A stretch of 64,000 nt of DNA. Source: Spirochaetota bacterium (GTDB taxonomy: Bacteria > Spirochaetota > Brevinematia > Brevinematales > Brevinemataceae). Below, in pieces: positions 4,733 to 16,421 of this stretch; the stretch's first letter is position 1, and every line of letters begins with the position of its first letter. The DNA lies in contig JAGUQW010000006.1 in assembly GCA_030154445.1 (NCBI GenBank), positions 62,001 through 126,000 of the forward strand. Reading direction: 5' to 3'. The notes beneath the pieces are model-generated. The model did not search any database and was not told the DNA's origin. It saw nothing but the letters and a program-made list of their open reading frames with translations. Both the position numbers and the translations under genes were made by a program.

Positions 4733-5605
4733 TTATCTTAAAAGTTGTAAAACCATTTGTGACTGTTGGTTAGCTTGTGCTAACATAGCATTTGCAGCTT
4801 GCATCATGACTTGGTTTCTAGCGTGTACGCTGGATTCTTTAGCCATATTAGTATCACGAATTCGTGATTCTGCACTTTGAAGATTTTCGTATCCAACTTG
4901 GATAGAACGAGTTGCAGATTCTAGTCTATTTTGGTAAGCACCTAAATCAGCTCTTTGTGAGTTAACAGTGCGTAATGCTTGATCGACAAGACCAATAGTA
5001 GCGTTAGCAGAGTTTTGTGTACTTAAAGAAATGAAAGAAGCAGTTGCTGGATTTCCAATAGGTGATTTTAATCCAAGAGCTTGAGAATTCATGTTTCCAA
5101 TATTAAGTTGAACTCTTTCATCCATGTTTGCACCCATATGAATCCACATAGACGCAGTTGCTGGTTTTTCAGCAGTTGCTTTTTCAAATGTTCCAGTAAG
5201 CATTCTCATTCCATTGAATTGAGCTTGTGATGAAATACGATCTAATTCTGCAATCATTTGAGAAACTTCAACTTGGATATATTCTCTATCTTCATCTGTA
5301 TAGATACCGTTAGAAGATTGGATAGATAGTTCACGAATACGTTGTAAAATTTGTGTTGATTCAGCAAGATATCCTTCAGTAGTTTGGATAAAAGAAATAC
5401 CATCTTGAGTATTCATATTAGCACGGTTCAAACCTTTGATTTGAGCACGCATTTTTTCAGAAACAGCTAATCCAGAAGCATCATCACCAGCTCTGTTAAT
5501 TCTCATACCAGAAGATAATTTTTCCATAGTTTTACTATTAGCAAGACCTTGAACTTCCATTTGACGATTTCCAAAAATCGCAGATATATTATTATTAATA
5601 ACCAT
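4733..5605 (-). CDS. flaB: Flagellin FlaB (copy 1)
   Basis: A core filament protein of the periplasmic flagella, 290 residues. The start at 5605 follows GGAGG (5611-5615) and gives the canonical MVINNNISAIFGNRQ opening; upstream in-frame codons are leader sequence. The N-terminal D0/D1 helices contain [26 protein letters not shown], shortened here to the recognisable [20 protein letters not shown] block. A short variable centre has the spirochaete-type [10 protein letters not shown] motif, and the C-terminal D1/D0 helices end [17 protein letters not shown]. There is no D2/D3 insertion, as is usual for FlaB. The gene has its own sigma-28-like promoter and a strong terminator, so it is probably monocistronic. 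It is closer to the copy at 29944 than to the one at 28837. Confidence 0.96.
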   Translation of the reverse strand: MVINNNISAIFGNRQMEVQGLANSKTMEKLSSGMRINRAGDDASGLAVSEKMRAQIKGLNRANMNTQDGISFIQTTEGYLAESTQILQRIRELSIQSSNGIYTDEDREYIQVEVSQMIAELDRISSQAQFNGMRMLTGTFEKATAEKPATASMWIHMGANMDERVQLNIGNMNSQALGLKSPIGNPATASFISLSTQNSANATIGLVDQALRTVNSQRADLGAYQNRLESATRSIQVGYENLQSAESRIRDTNMAKESSVHARNQVMMQAANAMLAQANQQSQMVLQLLR

Positions 5606-5654
5606 AACATCCTCCATGATGTGTTTTATTACATGCATCCTTGCATATAATGAA

Positions 5655-5681
5655 TTATCGGATCAATTCTAAAAAAAATTA
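5655..5681 (-). promoter_or_regulatory. Sigma-28 (FliA)-like promoter of flaB copy 1
   Basis: Read on the minus strand: TAAT (5681-5678), exactly 15 bases, then TCCGATAA (5662-5655). This is close to the flagellar sigma-28 consensus TAAA-N15-GCCGATAA. It lies about 50 bases upstream of the flaB start. Confidence 0.6.
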
Positions 5682-5705
5682 GCTTTGTGTAGTATTTTTA
5701 TTTTT

Positions 5706-6047
5706 TTATTTATATGTATATAAAGATCTCTCTTGTAATTGTGGATTTAAGGAGTTTTCTATCATTTTTGCGAGACCAAATCCACCGATTTTTGAAGTGT
5801 TTTTTGCATATTCTGTATAAAGCATATCATCAAAAATTTCTTTTCCTGGGGATTCTTTTTCAGTGGTACTTTTGTTATTAATTGTTTTTCTCATTTCTTT
5901 AAACATCATTTCTATAAATAATGATTCGAATTCTTGAGATACCTCTTTGATTTTTTTATCATCTAGGGCTTTATTTTTTAATTGTGCGAACTCATGTGTT
6001 TGATTTCTGTTCATTGATGATGTGGCTTGTTGATTTATAATTTGCAT
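5706..6047 (-). CDS. flgJ: FlgJ-type flagellar rod-binding protein (N-terminal domain only)
   Basis: A 113-residue protein matching the rod-binding domain of FlgJ, which caps or chaperones assembly of the flagellar rod in the periplasm. The diagnostic stretch is FESLFIEMMFKEMRKT, then IFDDMLYTEYAK and GGFGLAKMIENSL. The muramidase half found in enterobacterial FlgJ is absent, as in many bacteria. I set the start at 6047 because GAGGA lies directly upstream; the ATG 18 bases further out would overlap that ribosome site. It precedes flaB on the same strand, so the two form a small flagellar locus, although flaB has its own promoter. Confidence 0.8.
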   Translation of the reverse strand: MQIINQQATSSMNRNQTHEFAQLKNKALDDKKIKEVSQEFESLFIEMMFKEMRKTINNKSTTEKESPGKEIFDDMLYTEYAKNTSKIGGFGLAKMIENSLNPQLQERSLYTYK

Positions 6048-6178
6048 AATTTCCTCGCTTTCCATAAAGAAATTTATATGAATATATAAAATATACTGTA
6101 CTGTTTATATTTTCGGATTTTTTAGAAAATTAATGAGCTTTTTTAGACAATTAATGTGTAAAACACAAAAAAATAGTA

Positions 6179-6679
6179 TTATAGTCGAGTAGAGAATGGG
6201 AGAGTTGTAGTTAGTTGTTCAGCATCTTTAGTATTATTTGCATATTCAGAAGAAAATATTAGATTGGTATTATTATCAAATTTTATTTTTAGATATCTGT
6301 TTTTTTTGATGAGTGATCCTGAATTTTCTATATTTGGACTCATAATTTCAAATATTGCGGAACAAATATCGTTTTGTAGAACATATTGAAATTGTATTAT
6401 AACTCGAGATACCCCTGTATAAATATCCATTTGTCCATAATTATCAATGTTAAAGATATCCATTGTACTAAATAAAGGATTGGGGATGTTAACAAAATAA
6501 TTATCTGGAGTATTTAATAAATCAGCTCCTGATGGATTAAGTTGGTATTGACCAAAAACAAAAGATAAATAAACTTCATTTCTTATATTAACAGGATTCG
6601 TATCAACACTACACGCTGTAATAATAATATTTATAATGACAGATAGGCTGACAATAACAATTTTTTTATATTTTTTCAT
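6179..6679 (-). CDS. Putative lipoprotein of unknown function
   Basis: A 166-residue predicted lipoprotein. The opening MKKYKKIVIVSLSVIINIII leads to a TAC lipobox cysteine, followed by a polar mature part. The FVFGQYQLN segment may correspond to the F-x(4)-G-[TQ]-Y core of the neighbouring small lipoproteins, but the protein is longer and the match is weaker. There is no clear ribosome site in front of the ATG. It lies 20 bases downstream of another lipoprotein gene on the same strand, so the two are probably co-transcribed. No domain recognised. Confidence 0.65.
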   Translation of the reverse strand: MKKYKKIVIVSLSVIINIIITACSVDTNPVNIRNEVYLSFVFGQYQLNPSGADLLNTPDNYFVNIPNPLFSTMDIFNIDNYGQMDIYTGVSRVIIQFQYVLQNDICSAIFEIMSPNIENSGSLIKKNRYLKIKFDNNTNLIFSSEYANNTKDAEQLTTTLPFSTRL

Positions 6680-6699
6680 TTTTGTACTCTATTATTTAT

Positions 6700-7047
6700 T
6701 TATGATATTTTTTTTGCAAAAGGTATCATATTCTCAAAAGATATATTATGAGATGATTTATTAGGAGTATTATAATATAAAATAATATTATCTAATTTAA
6801 TTGGAACATAATATTTAGTTCCATTACTTTTTTTAGTATAAATAGCTTCTGTGTCCGAAATGCCTTGATAAAAAAACATTTGAGTTTCTGGTGTTCCAGC
6901 CATGCTTCCTGTGCTATCAATAGAGAATTGTATAGACGGATCAGATAATAGTTCATAAGTTCCTCTGGCTTTTTGTCTAAAAAGATAAGTAATATCTTGG
7001 CAAGAGCTAAATATAGATAATACTAATAATACTAATAATTTTTTCAT
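6700..7047 (-). CDS. Small lipoprotein, member of the local paralogous family
   Basis: A 115-residue lipoprotein opening MKKLLVLLVLSIFSSC, with a strong G-rich ribosome site (AAGGGGGGG) just upstream of the ATG. After the cysteine, YLFRQKARGTYELLSD carries the family core G-T-Y. The C-terminus ISFENMIPFAK closely resembles VRFEHLVPIAI of the gene ending at 8073. This is the first gene of a minus-strand pair and is divergent from the lipoprotein gene at 7174. Function unknown; surface or periplasmic location is inferred from the lipobox. Confidence 0.72.
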   Translation of the reverse strand: MKKLLVLLVLSIFSSCQDITYLFRQKARGTYELLSDPSIQFSIDSTGSMAGTPETQMFFYQGISDTEAIYTKKSNGTKYYVPIKLDNIILYYNTPNKSSHNISFENMIPFAKKIS

Positions 7048-7120
7048 TTCCCCCCCTTTGATATAATATAAAAATACTCTTATAATAATATAATGTCTAA
7101 TTTTATTTTATTTTTTCAAT

Positions 7121-7158
7121 AAAAATTTATATCTTATTTTTATAAGATATAAATTTTT
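7121..7158 (+). repeat. Perfect 16-bp A/T inverted repeat abutting a ribosome binding site
   Basis: Arms at 7121-7136 and 7143-7158 are exact reverse complements with a 6-base loop. The 3' arm ends one base before GAGGAG (7160-7165), the ribosome site of the lipoprotein gene at 7174. In RNA this would make a hairpin directly upstream of the Shine-Dalgarno. It could stabilise the 5' end, affect initiation or act as a weak terminator; nothing here distinguishes these. Confidence 0.5.
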
Positions 7159-7173
7159 TGAGGAGAAATATTT

Positions 7174-7548
7174 ATGAAGATGATAAAAATATATTATACT
7201 ATTAGTGTATTCTTTATATTATTAATTATTACCTCTTCTTGCTCTATCTCAGCCGGAAAAGACTTTATTAATAATATAATGGGAACTTATGAAAGTTATA
7301 GAACAGCAGGGGTGATAAATATAGTGGATAGTGAGGGAAATATCTCTGAAAACAGTACAATAGTTTATCGTTTGTACCATGTTTTTACGGTCAATAAAGC
7401 CATCTATTGTGTTATTGATTCTACATATGGGGTAGGATATGTTCCTGTTTTTTATCAAACAGATATGTTGTATATTGGTAATAGTAGTGAAAATTATGAA
7501 GGTGTTAATTTTTCTACAGTTTCTTTATTTGGAATGAAAATCAATTAA
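7174..7548 (+). CDS. Small lipoprotein, member of the local paralogous family
   Basis: A 124-residue lipoprotein opening MKMIKIYYTISVFFILLIIT and reaching the lipobox cysteine at SSC. The mature part begins SISAGKDFINNIMGTYESY, a good example of the shared F-[IL]-x(3)-G-T-Y core. The C-terminal GVNFSTVSLFGMKIN corresponds in position to the end motif of its paralogues. The ribosome site GAGGAG is preceded by a 16-bp hairpin. No known domain. It is the first of two plus-strand members, divergent from the 6700-7047 gene. Confidence 0.72.
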   Translation: MKMIKIYYTISVFFILLIITSSCSISAGKDFINNIMGTYESYRTAGVINIVDSEGNISENSTIVYRLYHVFTVNKAIYCVIDSTYGVGYVPVFYQTDMLYIGNSSENYEGVNFSTVSLFGMKIN

Positions 7549-7635
7549 TTTTTATTTAATATCATAAGATTACTAGTAATAAAATTGATAAATATTTTCT
7601 ATTGTTTTATACTATAATCTTTAAGGATGTTTTCT

Positions 7636-8073
7636 ATGAAAAATATAATTTGGAAATTATTTAATATATTAATAGTTTTTATTGGCTTTACTTACTGTTC
7701 ACCAAATTTAGATGAAAAAAGTTTTCTACGAGATATTTCAGGTACATATACATTAAGTAAAACAGGGGTATCTTTTATCACAAGAGAACTTACAGGATAT
7801 GTTACAGAATCTGTAACAGAAGGAACAGAGTTAGAAATGAGAGGTGATGGTTCACTAAGTATAATATTTTCTCCTACATCATCTCAAAAAATAGCTCAAT
7901 TTATCAAATTGAAGTTAGAAAAGCAAGGATTGTATGAATTAGAAAATAAAAAAACTTATGTAGCTATGGGAAAAAAAGAATTGTTACTAATAGCAACTAC
8001 TAATAGTGAAATCAGTGAAAATAATGTTCGTTTCGAACATCTTGTACCTATAGCTATTGAAAAACCTCAATGA
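7636..8073 (+). CDS. Small lipoprotein, member of the local paralogous family
   Basis: A 145-residue predicted lipoprotein. I take the ATG at 7636 because AAGGA lies at 7623-7627, which overlaps an alternative ATG at 7627. The signal peptide runs MKNIIWKLFNILIVFIGFTYC; tyrosine at -1 makes the lipobox unusual, so lipidation is less certain. The mature N-terminus DEKSFLRDISGTYTLSKTG is the clearest form of the family core F-L-x(3)-G-T-Y. The C-terminus VRFEHLVPIAI matches that of the 6700-7047 product. The gene's stop codon is adjacent to and partly inside the following terminator stem. Confidence 0.7.
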   Translation: MKNIIWKLFNILIVFIGFTYCSPNLDEKSFLRDISGTYTLSKTGVSFITRELTGYVTESVTEGTELEMRGDGSLSIIFSPTSSQKIAQFIKLKLEKQGLYELENKKTYVAMGKKELLLIATTNSEISENNVRFEHLVPIAIEKPQ

Positions 8074-8121
8074 CAATCAATAAAAAAACACCTTATTAGA
8101 AGGTGTTTTTTTATTGATTGT
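8073..8121. terminator. Bidirectional terminator with perfect 22-bp arms
   Basis: Arms at 8073-8094 and 8100-8121 pair exactly around a 5-base loop. The ACACCTT/AAGGTGT tip is followed by a T tract on either strand, and the pairing extends into mirrored flanks (acaatcaat/attgattgt). It serves the convergent lipoprotein gene and recO. Confidence 0.85.
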
Positions 8122-8127
8122 TATAAA

Positions 8128-8769
8128 TTATAATTCATGAAAACGTAGTAGTTCTATAGAATGAGGCATAATATATTTGGCTCTTTTAATAGCATGTGCA
8201 TAAAAATAAGATAATTCATGTCGACGAGAGTTAGAAATATTTTTACCTTGAAGAAATTCTATAGGGTGTGTAAGGGCATCAAAAATAAATCGTTTACTTT
8301 GTTTTTGTAATTTTTCTTGTTCTGGAATATCTAACCAAGATTCTCCATTCAAAAATTTAGCTAAAAAAAATAGTAAATATTTTTCATCTAAACTTGCATC
8401 AAATAGTGTGAAAGCAGTATATAAATCTGAATAATAAGGAAACAAATCGCCTTCCATAACTAACATATCTAAAATTTCTAAAGTAAAAAAAGCAAAGCCC
8501 ATAGGTTTGAGATCTTCTCTAATATTATCCATGGCAAAAATAATTTTAGAATCACTTAATAGATAGCGATCGTTTTTTTTATTATTGGTAATAAGACCTT
8601 CTATAAAAGATCCAGATAATAATAAGGCTCTTCTTTTTCCTGTTTCTAAAGCAGTACCATAAGATGTTAATGTGATTTTGCCAAATTCAGAATCAAGAAA
8701 ATTTAAAATTAAATGTCCATCACCAAATCCTTTTTTAGATAAAATAATCCCTTCACAAAGTCTTTGCAT
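8128..8769 (-). CDS. recO: DNA repair protein RecO
   Basis: RecO is a recombination mediator that loads RecA onto SSB-coated single-stranded DNA together with RecR. The 213-residue product starts with the RecO OB-fold pattern: GIILSKKGFGDGHLILNFL, then the KITLTSYGTALETGKR block, and a helical C-terminal half with SYFYAHAIKRAKYIMPHS. It is shorter than the usual ~240 residues, and I see no zinc-finger cysteines in the C-terminal part. The gene starts two bases after the stop of the cysteine/histidine protein upstream, so the two are translationally coupled. Confidence 0.82.
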   Translation of the reverse strand: MQRLCEGIILSKKGFGDGHLILNFLDSEFGKITLTSYGTALETGKRRALLLSGSFIEGLITNNKKNDRYLLSDSKIIFAMDNIREDLKPMGFAFFTLEILDMLVMEGDLFPYYSDLYTAFTLFDASLDEKYLLFFLAKFLNGESWLDIPEQEKLQKQSKRFIFDALTHPIEFLQGKNISNSRRHELSYFYAHAIKRAKYIMPHSIELLRFHEL

Positions 8770-8771
8770 TA

Positions 8772-9401
8772 TTACAATTCTTCATCCAATAATTTTTGTT
8801 GATCTTCACCATGAAGAAGCTCTTCAAGAGGAGCACCAGGATATATTTTTTCGATGAGTTGTATTTTTTTATCTTTGTCAGATTCCATAATACCAAAAGA
8901 TCCGCTACCTAAATAAGCAAGATATCTATTAGTTATGAGTTTTTCTTTGACTGAAGTTGTTACTTTTTTATATACACAATCAAAATGTGCTAAACTATCA
9001 TGATCATAATCATGTAAAGCATACATGATCTCTTTGATAGGTTTACTACAAATAGGACATGTCTGGGTTAGATCTATTTTGACGATGGTAGCAGGTTCTA
9101 TGATAGGATCTATAAAATCATCTGTGTCTATAGTATTTTTTTTAGTAGTAGTGGTAGTTAATACTTTTATTATTTTACTCTGTTTTACAAGAGATGTCAT
9201 TAATAATTCTTCAGGATCAACGGCGTCTAAAATAGTCATAAGATCAGATTTGGTAATGGGTATACTAATATCACGAGAGGTTTTTTCAATATCCCATTTA
9301 AGGTTACTTTGTTCTTTTTTATGAGATTTGTTTTTATGTTTTTTTTTCTGAAAATATGTTTTTTGAGATATTTGTTCTTTTTGTTGAGTTTTATTTTCCA
9401 T
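8772..9401 (-). CDS. Conserved-looking hypothetical protein with basic N-terminus and CxxC/HxxC zinc-site candidate
   Basis: A 209-residue protein I do not recognise. Residues 1-35 are very lysine-rich (FQKKKHKNKSHKKEQ). The middle is acidic with a threonine run (TTTTTTKK). Around residues 115-145 there is CPIC, a HDYDHD stretch and HFDC, which together could bind one zinc ion. The tail is acidic (LLHGEDQQKLLDEEL). It is the first gene of a two-gene operon with recO, two bases apart, which suggests a nucleic-acid-related role, but that is inference. The ATG has an upstream GAGGAA ribosome site. Confidence 0.7.
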   Translation of the reverse strand: MENKTQQKEQISQKTYFQKKKHKNKSHKKEQSNLKWDIEKTSRDISIPITKSDLMTILDAVDPEELLMTSLVKQSKIIKVLTTTTTKKNTIDTDDFIDPIIEPATIVKIDLTQTCPICSKPIKEIMYALHDYDHDSLAHFDCVYKKVTTSVKEKLITNRYLAYLGSGSFGIMESDKDKKIQLIEKIYPGAPLEELLHGEDQQKLLDEEL

Positions 9402-9426
9402 AAATTCCTCATAGTGTATTTTTTTA

Positions 9427-9456
9427 ATTATACTACATAATAGATGCTTTTGTAAA
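9427..9456 (-). promoter_or_regulatory. Sigma-70-type promoter for the recO operon
   Basis: On the minus strand, TTTACA (9456-9451), 18 bases, then TATAAT (9432-9427), about 30 bases upstream of the first gene. Confidence 0.45.
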
Positions 9457-9502
9457 TGAATTATGTTTTTTTTATTAATTTAATGAGATCTGTTTGAATA
9501 TA

Positions 9503-9530
9503 TTGACTTTTTTATGTAATATGATATAAT
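9503..9530 (+). promoter_or_regulatory. Sigma-70-type promoter for the Rnf-like operon
   Basis: TTGACT (9503-9508), 16-base spacer, TATAAT (9525-9530), 35 bases upstream of the rnfC start. No operator palindrome is obvious. Confidence 0.6.
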
Positions 9531-9565
9531 AATAATAGGTGTTCTACAGGAATATAGAGGTAATA

Positions 9566-10804
9566 ATGAAGTTAGTTTCTCAAGATCGGTGTAAAAATAA
9601 ATCTATTCAAAATGATATTATTCATGATTTTTATTTTATGGCTATTGATGGAGAGCTTCATGTTACTATAGGAGATATTGTATCTGAAGGTCAGGTATTG
9701 ATTTCTAATTCTAAAAAACATCTTTTAACACATAGTCCTGTATGTGGTATAATAAAAGATATACAGTATCATCATCAACAAAAGTATCTTGTTTTAAAAA
9801 CAGATAAAACATGCAAACCCAAAGTATATAATACGTCTTCTCCTGTAGGATTACCAGCAGATATTCTTATCAATAGAATATATAATGCTGGAATTAATGG
9901 ATTGGAAGTATGGGATAATAAGTATTCTATTAATGAAAAATTAATTGAAGCTTGTGCTAAAGGTCAAATAGATACTGTTGTTATTAACGCTATTGATGGA
10001 GAACCATTTTTAGTCGGAGAAAGTGTCCTCTTGTTAGAAAAAACTAGAGAAATAATGCAAGCTGCTCATCAACTAAGATTAATACTCAATGCTAAAAATG
10101 TAGTTTTTGCAATATCTAAAAACAAACAACTGAAAGAAACTATAGAACAATTTATTTTTGATAACACCAAAACAGTAGTAGAATTAAACAGTTTTTATCC
10201 TTTAAATCATAATAAAATACTGATTAAAGAACTTTTCAACAAAGAATTAAATGATAGTCAGTTATGTTCTGATGCTGGCGTAGTAGTATTTACTCCTACT
10301 ATATTTTATGCTATATATGAAGCCTTATTTTATGAAAAGCCCGTAACTGATAGAGTTATCACAGTAGATGGAGCGTATAGTTTAGCTTATGGTGTGTTTC
10401 GTATAAAAATAGGGACACCTATTTCAAAATTTATGCGTCCTTTTTCATTAGAAAATTCCTATGTGATGTTTTCTGGGGGTCCTCTTCAAGGACAGTCATT
10501 AGAAAAAGAAAAAGCGCTTGTGAAGAATATGAATGCCATCATGATTTTTGAGGGTGCTATTACTATCCCAGAAGAACAATATTGTGTGCATTGTACTGCT
10601 TGTGTAGAAGTTTGTCCTATTAGACTTGAGCCAATAAAATTAGTAGATTTTATTAATAATAAAGAATATGATAGGGCTTATGATAATTATTTACAAGAAT
10701 GTATTAATTGTAATTTATGTAGCTATGTTTGTCCATCATTTATTCCATTAGGAAAAATTATAAAAGAGGGACAAATAATAAATAAGGATAGTTTTAATGC
10801 TTAA
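9566..10804 (+). CDS. rnfC: RnfC-like subunit of an Rnf/RSX-type electron transport complex, FMN/NADH loop not conserved
   Basis: In Rnf complexes RnfC is the peripheral NADH/ferredoxin-linked subunit that feeds electrons to an ion-pumping membrane module. This 412-residue version has the C-terminal pair of 4Fe-4S motifs intact: CVHCTACVEVCP (340-351) and CINCNLCSYVCP (379-390). Upstream, where family members have AGxxGLGGAxFPT, it reads AGINGLEVWDNKYS (108-121), and the following ECEPY is DGEPF (144-148). The glycine-rich flavin/NADH-binding loop therefore appears lost. I set the start at the ATG at 9566, preceded by AGAGG; a GTG 27 bases upstream is less likely. It is the first gene of a four-gene operon and overlaps the next gene by 8 bases. 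Confidence 0.8.
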   Translation: MKLVSQDRCKNKSIQNDIIHDFYFMAIDGELHVTIGDIVSEGQVLISNSKKHLLTHSPVCGIIKDIQYHHQQKYLVLKTDKTCKPKVYNTSSPVGLPADILINRIYNAGINGLEVWDNKYSINEKLIEACAKGQIDTVVINAIDGEPFLVGESVLLLEKTREIMQAAHQLRLILNAKNVVFAISKNKQLKETIEQFIFDNTKTVVELNSFYPLNHNKILIKELFNKELNDSQLCSDAGVVVFTPTIFYAIYEALFYEKPVTDRVITVDGAYSLAYGVFRIKIGTPISKFMRPFSLENSYVMFSGGPLQGQSLEKEKALVKNMNAIMIFEGAITIPEEQYCVHCTACVEVCPIRLEPIKLVDFINNKEYDRAYDNYLQECINCNLCSYVCPSFIPLGKIIKEGQIINKDSFNA

Positions 10805-12410
10805 AGTTTTTGATAAAGTAGTATCCGAAGCTCCATTTTTACATGACACAGTAACAACAGAAAATCAACAAAAAAAACATCTCTTTATTTTAAATATTAT
10901 ATTATTTTGTTCGCTATTCTTTTTTGGCTATAGTGTTCTAAAACAATTATTAATTGCTTACATTGCTGGGTATTGTATAGTATGGTTTTATCAATTTTTT
11001 GATAAAAATCTATTTTTTAATACTTTATTATGGCAGATATCTATACTTAATTATGTTCTTATTATATCTCCTCAGACATCTATATACGCTAATATTATAG
11101 GTGTTGCAGCTATGATGATATTTGGTATAGGTGTATTATCAGTAAATGGTAGACCTATTGTTACCCCTGTTTTATTAGGTGTATTAGTAGGATCTATTCA
11201 ACAATATACTACTGAGCCAACTTTTACCCTTCCTTATCTTATTTTTATGGTACAAAAAGCTAATACAATACTTGGTAATTCTTCTTTTTTAACAGCACTA
11301 ATCGATGCAAATCATATTATTGCTCAAGTACCTGAAAAAACCTTTTTATATAGTAATAGTATCTCAGCTTATACAGAATTAATAACAAATTATATAGATA
11401 TTTTTGTTCAAAATCCTAAAGATTTATTTTATATAATGATAGCCCCTTACTCTTTTAATATAAGTGTTGGATCTATATTTGTTGTTTTGTTAGCATATAT
11501 TATGTTGTCATTTAGTAAAATTATAGATCCTATCATTCCAATATTATATAGTTTTGTTTTTTTATTGATTTATTATTTACAATTAATTGGAAATCCTGAT
11601 GCGATAAAAATTTTACTACAAGGATTTGTATTTAATATTTCATTATGGTTTTCTTCTGTTTTTATTATTGCTAATAATATTCCTATTAATAACAAAAAAG
11701 GACGATATATTGCTACAATTATCACAGCTGTGATAGCGTCAATGATGTTTTATAAATCTTATTATATTATTAATCATATTTTTGCAGTAATAATAATAAA
11801 TATTAGTGCAGCGTTGATAGAAATTATTTGTAAAAAACCTGTTTTTGGAATATCAAAAAAAGTTAGTGATGTACCAGAGAAATTGAGATTCACAATATCA
11901 ACAAAATATATTACAAGAATTATTATTGGTATAACAATGATCTGGAGTGTTTTTTTTACTTTGAGTTTATTTCCTAATAATATTTTTGAACAAAGAGAGA
12001 GTGAATATTTTCTAAATGTGGTAGGAGATTTTTTCCCTACATATCGTGTTCAAAAAAGTAACTTTACAAATATATTTAAAGTAGAAGATATTCAAGGTGA
12101 AACATCCTACATTATTAATAGTGATTCTAGTCTATATAGAACATATATCAATATATTACTGTTGGTAAAAGACGATATTATTAAAGATGTAAAGATAGTC
12201 AAACTAGTTACAGCTCATTCTTATTATATTGATAGTCAATTCAGAGAATTATTGATAGATCAAAATATTAATAATATGACAGAAATTTTAGATGAAAATA
12301 AAATTAAACAATATAGTAATAAAAACCCTTTTGTCAGTTATAGAGTTGTAGATGCTTTTAGAAAAGGCTCTAAAATTTATAGTGAGTTTATTAAGAATAA
12401 AAGAGAGTAA
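10797..12410 (+). CDS. Fused RnfD-RnfG-like membrane subunit without recognisable flavinylation sites
   Basis: A 537-residue protein. Residues ~25-365 form a polytopic membrane domain of the RnfD/NqrB type, including a VNGRPIVTPVLLG segment and an IIANNIPINNKKGRYI segment that aligns with the FFMATDPVTSP-x-KGR region of RnfD. A further transmembrane helix (~367-390) leads into an extracytoplasmic domain resembling the FMN-binding fold of RnfG. RnfD's flavinylation motif (D-x(2)-SGATP) corresponds to IDANHIIAQVPE (169-180). The RnfG motif SGATxTSxAVVDAV corresponds to KNPFVSYRVVDAF (509-521). Neither keeps the acceptor threonine. In other organisms D and G are separate genes, so the fusion is itself unusual. 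Alignment was by eye. Confidence 0.65.
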   Translation: MLKVFDKVVSEAPFLHDTVTTENQQKKHLFILNIILFCSLFFFGYSVLKQLLIAYIAGYCIVWFYQFFDKNLFFNTLLWQISILNYVLIISPQTSIYANIIGVAAMMIFGIGVLSVNGRPIVTPVLLGVLVGSIQQYTTEPTFTLPYLIFMVQKANTILGNSSFLTALIDANHIIAQVPEKTFLYSNSISAYTELITNYIDIFVQNPKDLFYIMIAPYSFNISVGSIFVVLLAYIMLSFSKIIDPIIPILYSFVFLLIYYLQLIGNPDAIKILLQGFVFNISLWFSSVFIIANNIPINNKKGRYIATIITAVIASMMFYKSYYIINHIFAVIIINISAALIEIICKKPVFGISKKVSDVPEKLRFTISTKYITRIIIGITMIWSVFFTLSLFPNNIFEQRESEYFLNVVGDFFPTYRVQKSNFTNIFKVEDIQGETSYIINSDSSLYRTYINILLLVKDDIIKDVKIVKLVTAHSYYIDSQFRELLIDQNINNMTEILDENKIKQYSNKNPFVSYRVVDAFRKGSKIYSEFIKNKRE

Positions 12411-12411
12411 T

Positions 12412-13032
12412 ATGAAACAACACATTTCTCATGGTCCATTAGTTAGATTTTGCTTGCATCCTTTAATTTTTACAATGAATAGTGCCTACCAAGGCGTTAT
12501 TGCTGGAATAGGAATTTTAATTTTATATCCTTTTTTATCAATGGTTATTGATTTATTAAAAAAAAGAATACAAACGATAGATGCTTTTTATATTACTTCT
12601 TTTTTGGGAGTATGTAGTGGTACATTGTATGTGCTATTGGTGGGTATGGTAGATTGGAGATTATACAAAGAATTAGCCTTTGTTTTTCCTGCATCAATGA
12701 CAGCTACTTCAATGTTAATAGGTTGGTTAGAAGATCATGAACATGAGAGAGAATCTACTCCTTTTATCGAAGCATTTATATCAGCGATCTTGGTGGTTCT
12801 TTTTTCTTGTATTAGAGATTTAATGTTACATGGATCATTGAATTTTAAATTTGGTTCTTTTGGTGAAATTTACAATTTTGGTGGCGATTCTGTTTTTGAA
12901 AATATTATAAATAATAAAAAATATTCTTGGTTTTCAGTAATTAATATAAGAGCAATGATCTTTTTTATTATAGCTATACTTATTGGAATAATGGGACTTG
13001 CTCCTTCAAACAAAGGAGAAAAAATACAATGA
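12412..13032 (+). CDS. rnfE: RnfE-like integral membrane subunit
   Basis: A 206-residue membrane protein of the Rnf/Nqr E/D type, one of the two homologous six-helix subunits that form the ion channel. It shows repeated hydrophobic helices and an IRDLMLHGSLNFKFGSFGE segment resembling the IRE-x-LGxGTLFG motif of RnfE. The start at 12412 lies directly after the previous stop; an in-frame ATG 60 bases upstream is inside the preceding gene. The amphipathic opening MKQHISHGPLVRF differs from typical RnfE. It overlaps the next gene by four bases (ATGA). Confidence 0.65.
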   Translation: MKQHISHGPLVRFCLHPLIFTMNSAYQGVIAGIGILILYPFLSMVIDLLKKRIQTIDAFYITSFLGVCSGTLYVLLVGMVDWRLYKELAFVFPASMTATSMLIGWLEDHEHERESTPFIEAFISAILVVLFSCIRDLMLHGSLNFKFGSFGEIYNFGGDSVFENIINNKKYSWFSVINIRAMIFFIIAILIGIMGLAPSNKGEKIQ

Positions 13033-13565
13033 GTTTCTTAAGTATTTTCTTTTCAGGAATTTTTTTTGAAAATATATTTGTTTGGCATGCTATTGGATTG
13101 GGTACAATTGTATTATTTACTTATACTTTAAGTGAATCTTTTTGGGTTGGTTTAAGGATAATTCTTTTTTTATTGATGCAAACTATTATTATGATTATTT
13201 TAAAACCTTGGTTCATATTTCCTGGAAAAGAACTGTTCTTATTAATTGTACTAATAGGATTCGAAGTGATATTTAGTGTTATAATCGGTTTTTTATTACC
13301 AAAGTCTCGTCTAGAAGAATCTGTTATAGGATTTATTCGTAGAGGAGATGCTATCTTACCTTTAATTTGTTCGGTGATTATAGGGAAAAATTTTGGAGCT
13401 ATGGATAGTATTGTTTATTCGTTAGGTCTGGGTATAGGATTTATGCTGGTACTATGTACTATTACAGCTATTAGTATTAATTTTAATTTTTATAGATTAA
13501 ATGCCAAGCATACCTATGCTTTGAAATTATTTATTTTAGGTCTTTTATCAATGATTAGTTATTAA
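13029..13565 (+). CDS. rnfA: RnfA-like integral membrane subunit
   Basis: A 178-residue membrane protein with six predicted helices, the last gene of the Rnf-like operon. The SIVYSLGLGIGFMLVLCTITAI stretch (quoted in part: SLGLGIGFMLVLC) matches the RnfA/NqrE region DALGxGLGFTLALVL. The C-terminal ALKLFILGLLSMISY matches its final helix. RnfA and RnfE have inverted topology and together make the sodium/proton path. Start and previous stop overlap, so translation is coupled. No rnfB is present in the window, so this cluster is incomplete compared with classical six-gene Rnf operons. Confidence 0.65.
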   Translation: MSFLSIFFSGIFFENIFVWHAIGLGTIVLFTYTLSESFWVGLRIILFLLMQTIIMIILKPWFIFPGKELFLLIVLIGFEVIFSVIIGFLLPKSRLEESVIGFIRRGDAILPLICSVIIGKNFGAMDSIVYSLGLGIGFMLVLCTITAISINFNFYRLNAKHTYALKLFILGLLSMISY

Positions 13566-13587
13566 AAAAACACTAGGAGGAATAATT

Positions 13588-14571
13588 ATGGATACAGATA
13601 TTCGTCGTATTACAGAATTAGCAGTACAAAAAAAAGAAATACTTACTCAAATTGAACTGGAATATGAAAAAATTATCGTAGGTCAAAAATTAGTTTATAA
13701 ATATTTGATGATGGGTTTATTGACTGGCGGGCATATTCTTATTGAGGGATTGCCAGGATTAGCAAAAACATTATCTATCAGTACTCTTGCAAAAATTTTA
13801 GATCTGGATTTTAATAGAATTCAATTTACTCCTGATATGCTTCCTGCTGATATTCGTGGAACATTGATTTATAATCAAGGTTCTGGAAATTTTGAAGTAA
13901 AACAAGGACCAGTATTTACAAATTTTGTTTTAGCAGATGAAATAAATCGTGCTCCAGCAAAAGTTCAAGCAGCTTTATTAGAAGCTATGCAAGAAAAAAC
14001 AATTACTATTGGTGATAATACTTATAGATTACCAGATCCATTTTTAGTAATGGCTACTCAAAATCCTATAGAACAAGAGGGAACTTATCCTCTTCCTGAA
14101 GCTCAAATGGATCGTTTTTTATTAAAAGTAATTGCTCATTATCCGACAAGAGCTGAGGAAAAAAGAATTATTTCTCGTATGGGAGGTATGATTATTCCAG
14201 AACCGAAAAAAATTGTTTCCAAAGAACAAGTGCTTGATCTACAAAATTTTGTAAAACAAATTTATGCTGATGAAAAAATCATGGAATATATTGTGAATCT
14301 TGTCTATGCTACTCGTGATCCAGAAGGTGTACAAATAAAATCAGAATATATTCGTGCTGGAGCTTCACCAAGAGCATCTTTGGCATTTCTTAAAGCGGCT
14401 AAAGCGGAAGCATTTTTTGATGGAAGAGCATATGTCATTCCAGAAGATATTAAAAGTGTTGCTCATGAAGTGTTGAGACATAGATTGTTGATTTCTTTTG
14501 AAGCTGAAGCTGAAGGATTAACTTCAGATAGTCTTATTGATCAAATTCTACAAAGAGTAGAGATTCCTTAA
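13588..14571 (+). CDS. MoxR-family AAA+ ATPase
   Basis: A 327-residue MoxR ATPase. These AAA+ proteins act as chaperones that help mature metal- or cofactor-containing enzymes or surface complexes, usually with a VWA-domain partner. Walker A is GLPGLAKT (54-61) and Walker B is VLADEINR (114-121). The sensor region MATQNPIEQEGTYPLPEAQ and the arginine-finger DRF are intact. AGGAGG lies before the ATG. It follows rnfA by 22 bases and so is probably in the Rnf-like operon, but the usual DUF58 and VWA genes do not follow; a terminator comes next. The only VWA protein in the window is at 21495-23591. Confidence 0.92.
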   Translation: MDTDIRRITELAVQKKEILTQIELEYEKIIVGQKLVYKYLMMGLLTGGHILIEGLPGLAKTLSISTLAKILDLDFNRIQFTPDMLPADIRGTLIYNQGSGNFEVKQGPVFTNFVLADEINRAPAKVQAALLEAMQEKTITIGDNTYRLPDPFLVMATQNPIEQEGTYPLPEAQMDRFLLKVIAHYPTRAEEKRIISRMGGMIIPEPKKIVSKEQVLDLQNFVKQIYADEKIMEYIVNLVYATRDPEGVQIKSEYIRAGASPRASLAFLKAAKAEAFFDGRAYVIPEDIKSVAHEVLRHRLLISFEAEAEGLTSDSLIDQILQRVEIP

Positions 14572-14600
14572 ACAACTATACAAATTATATATGATATACA

Positions 14601-14632
14601 AAAACCCCCAAAATTTTTTTTTTGGGGGTTTT
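14601..14632. terminator. Terminator after the MoxR gene
   Basis: AAAACCCCCAAAA (14601-14613) and TTTTGGGGGTTTT (14620-14632) pair around a T6 loop. It lies between convergent genes and can serve both strands. Confidence 0.75.
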
Positions 14633-14653
14633 GTTTGATATTTATTATTAAAT

Positions 14654-16312
14654 TTAATCAATAGATTTATAAACGCTTGGATAAATAGAATTATAATCTG
14701 ATCTGTATAAAACTACTCCATTTTGCATAAGTCTAGATGTTGGACAAGCAATAGGTAATGCTACATCACTTTCTCCAGTACCACGAGCTGTAAGATTTAA
14801 TCTCATATCAAAAATAACTTTATTATTTGCATCGATTTCTATATAAGGAAAAGGAGCTATTGTTCCAAAAGTTCCTATATAAGAATTAAATGGAGTTTTG
14901 TCTATATCAGAAACAATTTGTGAATATACTAAAGTACCATCTTGGTTTGTATGCCTATATTCCCAATCTAATGTTGCAGTTTTTGTTTCGTCATTGACAG
15001 AGAATACTAACAGACGAGAGCCTTCAGCTGGATAATTACCATCATCACCAGAGTTATCAAATACCATAAATTGATTGTTTGAAAGAAAAGAGATACTGTG
15101 AGTATGATCTGGACCATTTATTCCTTTTAGAATATATTTTGCTAATAATGGAATATTATAAACATAATCCATGGTATCAGGAAGATTGTAAAATAAACGA
15201 TTCGTAAAAGGTATAGTATAATCTTTTCTGATAAAAATCCATTTTAGTGTTTCAGTGTTATAATCAAAGGCAAAAATACCATGTTGACGGAAAGATAAAT
15301 AAATAGTATCAGTTTGTTCATCAAAATCTATAGCGTTAATATGAGCCCAATCAATAGCATTTTGTTTTTTAGGCATTCCAGGATATCTAATTCCTGAGGC
15401 GTATTCATCAAAAGGATTATCTTCTGAGTCAAAAATAAAATTTTCTAATCCTGTATTATCTTTAGGATCATTATTAACAGTTTTTCTAATCCAATCACCA
15501 ATTCGTATTTCTTTGACGATAGTACCTTTGGAGTCAACTTCTAATATCGCATCTTCAACACCATATTGAGATTTATCAAGAATAATTATATTTCCATTAT
15601 CTCTATAAAAGAAATCGTGATGATATCTTTTGTCCGCTTCTTTTACATTATAGACAGGCTCTTTTGGTCCTTTTACAATATTAACTAGCTTGCCTAGCAT
15701 ATTGTATGTAAGCACTTCTGGAGCGACAGTATTTAGTATAGAAAATTGAACTTCGTTATTACTAGTATTGAATTTCATGGCGTGTAGTTCATTAGTACTA
15801 GAAAGATACCATCTAATTTTGCCATAATTATCTGTAGCAAAAAGATCTTTTAAACTAGATACAGGATTAAAAAAATTTAGAAAATTTTTGCGTTCTTCGT
15901 TAATAGGTCTATTATTGACTAAAACTTCTATAGATGTAATATACTCTGATGCTCGATTAGTAATAACTATTTGAATAGTTTTGGATAAAGCGGGAGTTGA
16001 AATAATAATAGTATTAGTGTATTCAAAATACATCCCTAAAATTGGAAAAGTAGTATTAGTAGCATTTTTCCAAGTATAAGATAAATCAGAATCTTCACCA
16101 TCTTGTCCTTTTACAGTAATAGTTAAATCTGTATTAGGAGCTTGAATATGTAATTCTGCAGAAAGGGGAGTAATAAGGTAAGGATTTATTTTGAGAAAAT
16201 TATTAGATTTAATAATTGTAGAATTATCGGGAACTTGTTCCAGTGTTATTTGTGAATTATTACTACAAGAGATTGTAATAAAGAATACAGAGCTAAGTAA
16301 TATTTTTTTCAT
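14654..16312 (-). CDS. Arylsulfotransferase (ASST)-family lipoprotein
   Basis: A 552-residue predicted lipoprotein (MKKILLSSVFFITISC) resembling bacterial arylsulfate sulfotransferase, which moves sulfate from phenolic esters to phenolic acceptors in the periplasm via a catalytic histidine. An N-terminal beta domain (~30-125) is followed by a six-bladed propeller region. Visible motifs are RYHHDFFYRDNGNIIILD, DWAHINAIDFDEQTDTIYLS and GPDHTHSISFLSNNQFMVFD. Each has a histidine at a position expected for the ASST active site. I set the start at 16312, after GGAGTA. There is no DsbA/DsbL partner nearby. Substrate is unknown, and it could be a non-sulfotransferase propeller. Confidence 0.72.
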   Translation of the reverse strand: MKKILLSSVFFITISCSNNSQITLEQVPDNSTIIKSNNFLKINPYLITPLSAELHIQAPNTDLTITVKGQDGEDSDLSYTWKNATNTTFPILGMYFEYTNTIIISTPALSKTIQIVITNRASEYITSIEVLVNNRPINEERKNFLNFFNPVSSLKDLFATDNYGKIRWYLSSTNELHAMKFNTSNNEVQFSILNTVAPEVLTYNMLGKLVNIVKGPKEPVYNVKEADKRYHHDFFYRDNGNIIILDKSQYGVEDAILEVDSKGTIVKEIRIGDWIRKTVNNDPKDNTGLENFIFDSEDNPFDEYASGIRYPGMPKKQNAIDWAHINAIDFDEQTDTIYLSFRQHGIFAFDYNTETLKWIFIRKDYTIPFTNRLFYNLPDTMDYVYNIPLLAKYILKGINGPDHTHSISFLSNNQFMVFDNSGDDGNYPAEGSRLLVFSVNDETKTATLDWEYRHTNQDGTLVYSQIVSDIDKTPFNSYIGTFGTIAPFPYIEIDANNKVIFDMRLNLTARGTGESDVALPIACPTSRLMQNGVVLYRSDYNSIYPSVYKSID

Positions 16313-16421
16313 TTGTGTACTCCTAATATATTTATAATTGAATATATTTGTATACACTAATTATAGATTATAGTAGTGAGAAATTCAATAAAAATTCTGG
16401 ATATTATTGAAAATACAATAT

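Follow-up and report, generated by a model that had tools for sequence, protein, structure and literature searches.

A conserved Rnf-like operon with few recognisable cofactor sites in Brevinemataceae

We analysed an rnf-like operon on the forward strand of a Brevinema-type spirochaete genome (G000; 1.5 Mb, 95% complete), within a stretch of 64,000 nucleotides, G000:C6:62001-126000, called the window below. Homologues of RnfC, RnfD, RnfE and RnfA are encoded side by side, with an RnfG-like domain fused to RnfD and a moxR gene starting 22 nt after rnfA. Positions are those of the window, and the domain boundaries within rnfD-G are approximate:

9566-10804, +, rnfC-like gene, 412 residues (TIGR01945 1.2e-63, PF01512 4.2e-14, solved RnfC 8ahx 9e-61)
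10797-12410, +, fused rnfD-G gene, overlapping rnfC by 8 nt
10797-11921, +, RnfD-like domain of rnfD-G (PF03116 6.9e-11, canonical RnfD profile 99%, solved RnfD 2e-14)
11922-12407, +, RnfG-like C-terminal domain of rnfD-G (canonical RnfG profile match 81%)
12412-13032, +, rnfE-like gene without its two [2Fe-2S] cysteines (profile match 78% RnfE, 0.5% RnfA; site alignment)
13029-13565, +, rnfA-like gene without its two [2Fe-2S] cysteines, overlapping rnfE by 4 nt (PF02508 5.1e-7; site alignment)
13588-14571, +, moxR AAA+ ATPase gene (PF07726 2.6e-64)

These genes, with the same coordinates and frames, had been assigned to RnfC, RnfD-G, RnfE and RnfA in a sequence-only reading of the stretch, and family and profile matches bear the assignment out. 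Family searches were clear for RnfC and RnfA, the TIGR01945 score of RnfC lying under that family's curated cut-off, and weaker for RnfD. RnfE and the G domain were recognised only by profile comparison; RnfE had no family match, and its sequence matched no solved structure.

For the comparison of cofactor sites we used the ligand list of the A. woodii structure, in which RnfC carries flavin mononucleotide (FMN) and two 4Fe-4S clusters, RnfD a riboflavin (N123, D249) and a covalent FMN, and RnfG a further covalent FMN, while a [2Fe-2S] cluster is held by two cysteines each from RnfA and RnfE (PMC11889175). In the same structure the N- and C-terminal loops of RnfD contact RnfC (PMC11889175). 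The corresponding positions in the window proteins are:

10583-10618, +, first RnfC 4Fe-4S motif, CVHCTACVEVCP
10700-10735, +, second RnfC 4Fe-4S motif, CINCNLCSYVCP
9899-9928, +, position of the RnfC FMN loop GLGGAxFPT, reading GLEVWDNKYS (alignments including solved RnfC)
9995-10009, +, position of RnfC ECEPY, reading DGEPF (alignments including solved RnfC)
12324-12341, +, position of RnfG SGATxTS, reading NPFVSY, with F512 at the flavinyl threonine
11163-11165, +, T123, counterpart of the riboflavin-binding Asn of RnfD (NPA) (site alignment; PMC11889175)
11673-11675, +, N293, counterpart of the riboflavin-binding Asp of RnfD (site alignment; PMC11889175)
10824-10844, +, retained N-terminal end of RnfD, SEAPFLH (canonical SPHIH) (site alignment)
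11841-11849, +, C-terminal VFG of the RnfD domain, its FG kept in all four window-type RnfD

Only the two iron-sulfur (Fe-S) motifs of RnfC remain among the cofactor sites of this protein set. Both are perfect, as the sequence-only reading had stated, and its replacements in the RnfC FMN loop and ECEPY motif as well as in the flavinylation site of RnfG are confirmed; every canonical spirochaete RnfC retrieved full-length carries normal motifs. No SGAT/SGTT flavinylation motif was found in the window RnfD, so that the claimed loss stands, but not the exact pairing of SGATP with AQVPE, since different alignments place this region differently. Judged from the sequences, the losses exceed those first described: the riboflavin residues of RnfD are gone as well, and by site alignment all four membrane [2Fe-2S] cysteines of RnfA and RnfE are absent in the four Brevinemataceae genomes (G000, G001, G002 and G003) that our site, frame and synteny comparisons covered. 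The operon encodes no RnfB, which the Rnf complex includes, and neither nqrF nor cofactor-bearing NqrB-E. The earlier statement that rnfB is missing holds for the operon and not for the genome, where a 95-residue RnfB-like protein is encoded elsewhere.

The operon and the downstream moxR are found in the same order and with intact frames in four of four Brevinemataceae genomes. Identity of RnfC to the window protein amounts to 75, 48 and 38-39% in the relatives, the nearest named one being an uncultured Brevinema sp. (75%). Among 247 Spirochaetota genomes, RnfE of the window type occurs in these four only, and three order-mates match it weakly at their canonical RnfE. Between G000 and G003, where synonymous change is not saturated, ratios of nonsynonymous to synonymous substitution rates (dN/dS) are 0.19 for RnfC, 0.26 for RnfD-G, 0.21 for RnfE and 0.13 for RnfA. 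All eight Fe-S cysteines of RnfC are invariant in the four genomes, and residues 121-150, in or behind the old flavin loop, are the least conserved part of the protein (53% identity versus 75% overall, G000 versus G003). With the Fe-S cysteines invariant and the flavin loop diverged, the genes are thus under purifying selection, but not for flavin binding. The presence of the operon with intact frames and a dN/dS of 0.13-0.26 likewise argues against plain decay, in line with the original view of a maintained derivative without flavin sites. The further claim that the loss was coordinated stands as far as the sites are lost; one conserved new pattern did not emerge, since the RnfC loop reads GLEVWDNKYS, GLEEYDSEYA, GLGGEGLPAY and GISEENSLTY in the four genomes and G002 keeps GLGG. 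This variation between species, and the riboflavin Asn and Asp that G002 also retains and that are replaced in G000, G003 and G001, indicate that the sites were lost stepwise. The varied change among homologues comes in part close to the random pattern that the sequence-only reading had itself named as speaking against it.

Family searches of the window genome for rnf genes revealed a second locus (locus 2):

G000 C2:283981-288811 (4874-9866 of stretch L055, G000:C2:279000-294000), ApbE-RnfD-RnfG-RnfE-RnfA and a 95-residue RnfB, without RnfC; flavin-competent core

Here the sites are intact in RnfD (SGTTYLET), in RnfG (SGATFSSS) and at the RnfE and RnfA cysteines, both riboflavin residues of RnfD (Asn and Asp) are retained, and the short RnfB has a single Fe-S domain. 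The proposed search of the genome for rnfB, apbE and a second Rnf thus yielded apbE, a flavin-competent core and a short RnfB, in a locus without rnfC; the window RnfC is the sole PF01512 protein that the family search found in the genome. The RnfD of locus 2 has lost its PH-type N-terminus and its C-terminal FG, both of which the window RnfD keeps. G001 has the same locus-2 set, and in G002 the set lies in pieces on several contigs. Between G000 and G002, RnfD and RnfA of locus 2 are 83% and 89% identical, compared to 35% and 59% for their window counterparts. By its sequences, this genome divides the cofactor sites of one Rnf between two loci, which we read as a split into a redox arm in the membrane that lacks RnfC and a second arm in which RnfC sits on a cofactor-free membrane part. 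The locus-2 RnfD of the relatives measures 563-571 residues and has an extra C-terminal extension (L056 7433-9148 in G001; L058 666-2357 and L059 1745-3460 in G002), which in G001 is a flavinylation domain with SGATYT, adjoining a separate RnfG. FMN_bind proteins roughly 560-600 residues long, which could be candidate periplasmic acceptors, are additionally encoded in G001, G002 and G003.

In the known complex, electrons pass from RnfB via [2Fe-2S], FMN-G, FMN-D, riboflavin, the RnfC clusters and FMN-C to nicotinamide adenine dinucleotide (NAD) (PMC11889175, PMC12174285). Since the window complex would hold only the RnfC clusters, ferredoxin:NAD reduction and redox pumping by this route appear excluded for it, unless unseen cofactors exist. 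The ferredoxin-linked ion pump suggested before is not supported, because the losses extend to the [2Fe-2S] ligands, the riboflavin site and RnfB, and because mutation of AE1, FMN-G or RBF residues abolishes activity of the A. woodii Rnf (PMC11889175); the redox relay with another partner, suggested alongside it, would be possible only on the cytosolic side, via RnfC. We therefore favour, at a probability of roughly 55%, a maintained Rnf paralogue that would no longer perform transmembrane electron transfer. In the arrangement that we consider most likely, the ends that RnfD has retained would hold RnfC, whose clusters may trade electrons with a soluble carrier in the cytosol. RnfD, RnfE and RnfA would form a cofactor-free membrane bundle, serving either as an anchor for RnfC or as an ion or solute gate that tracks the state of RnfC, and MoxR may act as an ATPase in assembly or remodelling of the complex. 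Transmembrane redox work would be left to locus 2, which probably delivers electrons to periplasmic flavoproteins, so that a single ancestral job would be divided over two loci.

Several observations weigh against this maintained, non-pumping paralogue. The window rnf genes evolve faster than their neighbours (dN/dS between G000 and G003 of 0.05 for MoxR and 0.10 for RecO) and faster than locus 2, which indicates real relaxation of the operon. The state is not uniform, given the retained GLGG and riboflavin residues of G002, and in G001 the G domain is lost and RnfD has a possible DSTP. Cofactors could bind via residues that sequence motifs do not reveal, and AlphaFold models of RnfC and RnfD-G, built from two-row alignments, were too poor to use (predicted local distance difference test scores of 31 and 39). 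The rates above those of the neighbours, the flavin sites varying by species and the missing G domain would also be expected from a displaced ancestral Rnf that sheds its sites stepwise on the way to deletion. We regard such slow decay as quite improbable, however, in view of reading frames that are intact in all four genomes even at an RnfC identity as low as 38%, the low dN/dS, the eight invariant cysteines and the preserved gene overlaps and moxR linkage. Even less probable, in our view, is a functional redox pump with flavins that are bound non-covalently or at displaced positions and are therefore overlooked by motif reading. Such a pump would explain the residues kept in G002 and the threonine of SAYTEL, which hhalign places near the lost flavinylation site in G000 and G003, and it has a precedent in Nqr/Rnf-like RnfD proteins that also lack the covalent site and are thought to bind flavin non-covalently (PMC10979944). 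It would nevertheless have to work without the [2Fe-2S] cysteines in any of the four genomes, without RnfB in the operon and without the riboflavin Asn/Asp in three genomes, and SAYTEL is not conserved in G002. A more serious contender, though still an unlikely one, takes the window RnfC as the missing subunit of the locus-2 core: it would draw electrons from the riboflavin of the locus-2 RnfD, and its two clusters would hand them on to a soluble acceptor that is not NAD, leaving the window RnfD, RnfE and RnfA as relics or assembly helpers. The complementary cofactor sites of the two loci, the riboflavin residues of the locus-2 RnfD and the lack of any other RnfC in the genome fit this proposal. 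The RnfC-docking ends are found on the wrong RnfD for it, the locus-2 RnfD is extended at its C-terminus in G001 and G002 (by a flavin domain in the former), and the window frames of RnfD, RnfE and RnfA are still under selection.

Beyond Brevinemataceae, a profile of the four window-type RnfC matched in 192 of the 247 Spirochaetota genomes, mostly at canonical proteins. A separate RnfC clade, which has both Fe-S motifs but lacks the flavin loops, comprises Treponema-like genomes, G068, G245, G202, G137, G088 (Leptospira-like) and others, and most of its aligned members lack the [2Fe-2S] cysteines. We infer the names T. pallidum-, Leptospira- and Borrelia-like for these genomes; the RnfD of G068 spans base 174177, the position of a single-nucleotide variant in the RnfD TPASS_20151 (PMC6103504). 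In this T. pallidum-like genome, RnfC-D-G-E-A are encoded without flavin or [2Fe-2S] sites (L124 4287-8446), and a domain search of the genome gave no match to RnfB. In G244 (L128 2818-7646) the RnfC flavin loops are missing, yet RnfB and the RnfA/RnfE cysteines are kept, so that it looks like an intermediate. In Borrelia-like genomes (L123 4823-7129, L134, L135), RnfC and RnfD are fused into one protein of about 770 residues that has no Fe-S motif, and a gene of about 189 residues follows at the RnfA position. A domain search of these genomes found no RnfB or FMN_bind domain, and we found no publication naming the fused gene. Flavin-less loci from Treponema to Borrelia (L126, L127, L129, L130, L123, L125) adjoin a membrane protein of about 480 residues without Pfam family and a short protein that we read as PAP2/DUF212-like. 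In G008 (Brevinematales; L062 144-2956) only RnfC, RnfD and RnfA are encoded, RnfD without the flavinylation segment, RnfA without cysteines and RnfC intact; its losses represent a separate event, since its RnfC falls together with the ordinary RnfC of Brevinematales in the tree.

Descent of the window operon from this flavin-less lineage, with a shared function, would be compatible with the maintained, non-pumping paralogue that we favour, and we consider it possible but rather doubtful. The loss pattern is identical, and RnfC trees place Brevinemataceae beside the flavin-less clade (91/84). On the other hand, grouping with the canonical Brevinematales RnfC is not rejected (p-AU, approximately unbiased test, 0.058), branches are long, and in the RnfD tree the window clade falls among canonical sequences, apart from the flavin-less clade. 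The protein of about 480 residues, moreover, had no match in Brevinematia in a search that had no positive control in that class. As the two trees disagree, a single origin is not established, and independent losses appear at least as likely. A bolder and tentative generalisation, which we hold to be only slightly more probable than common descent, is that spirochaetes converted Rnf more than once (in Brevinemataceae, in G008 with RnfC-D-A only and in the T. pallidum-/Leptospira-/Borrelia-like lineage) to a machine that does not move electrons across the membrane, its bundle having a non-redox role that outlived the cofactors. This role would lie in ion or solute gating or in assembly.

Compared with the Rnf complex (A. 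woodii 9eri, C. tetanomorphum 7zc6, R. capsulatus or related 8ahx), the window operon has homologues of RnfC, D, G, E and A in the same order (C-D-G-E-A) and shares both 4Fe-4S motifs and the RnfC-binding ends of RnfD. It differs by the absence of rnfB, the D-G fusion and the attached moxR, and it lacks the FMN-C/NAD, FMN-D, FMN-G and riboflavin sites and the [2Fe-2S] cysteines, the RnfC loop being partly kept in G002 only. Na+-translocating NADH:quinone oxidoreductase (Na+-NQR, NqrA-F) resembles it in its core order without rnfB and in that NqrA, the RnfC homologue, also lost the FMN/NAD site. However, in Na+-NQR the membrane cofactors are all still present and the Fe-S clusters of NqrA were lost, whereas the window operon, which has no nqrF, shows the reverse. 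An rnf duplicate without RnfB has been proposed as a theoretical step toward NQR (PMC4014512), and the window operon resembles such a duplicate with the opposite cofactor set lost. Nqr/Rnf-like flavinylated systems (PMC8238504, PMC10979944) are likewise partial Rnf derivatives in which the covalent flavin site of RnfD is not conserved. They feature flavinylated RnfG/NqrC, linkage to ApbE and a NAD-binding domain fused to RnfD, none of which occurs in the window operon, where the domain fused to RnfD is RnfG-like, without the threonine.

The noncanonical RNF of T. pallidum, proposed as a flavin-dependent redox pump (PMC7512555), is likewise encoded by a spirochaete Rnf-like operon; its gene neighbours differ from those in the window, and common origin is not established. 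The site losses in G068 RnfC, D, G, E and A are at odds with such a flavin-driven pump. The accepted view of Rnf is that of an ion pump driven by redox reactions, and models of T. pallidum energy metabolism have been built on such a pump. That selection maintains an Rnf lacking flavin, [2Fe-2S] and RnfB would imply that part of the complex is useful apart from electron transfer, and window-type operons could serve as naturally occurring variants in which pump and redox function can be told apart. We found no description of the window-type state in the literature surveyed, which excluded most subscription journals.

Weaker RnfC matches in G002 and G003 (L006, L007) were set aside as PduS-like microcompartment genes. 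PduS-like proteins lie in microcompartment loci of two relatives (L012 7437-8774, L013 5346-6656) and are absent from the window genome. Two candidate signals flank the operon:

9503-9530, +, promoter-like site TTGACT-16-TATAAT, 36 nt before rnfC (11/12 match with TG)
14601-14632, +, terminator-like hairpin 3' of moxR, the sole one detected within 9350-14700

Frames and overlaps are intact, as had been claimed; for the promoter, claimed intact as well, the evidence is weak, because such sites are about equally frequent in shuffled sequences (41 observed versus 39). A RecO-like gene and a conserved 209-residue protein with a TCPICSKPIKEIMYALHDYDHDSLAHFDCV motif (8128-9401, -) are encoded divergently from rnfC in each of the four genomes. 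Convergent with moxR, an arylsulfotransferase-family lipoprotein (PF05935) is encoded at 14654-16357 (-), a position kept in the relatives.

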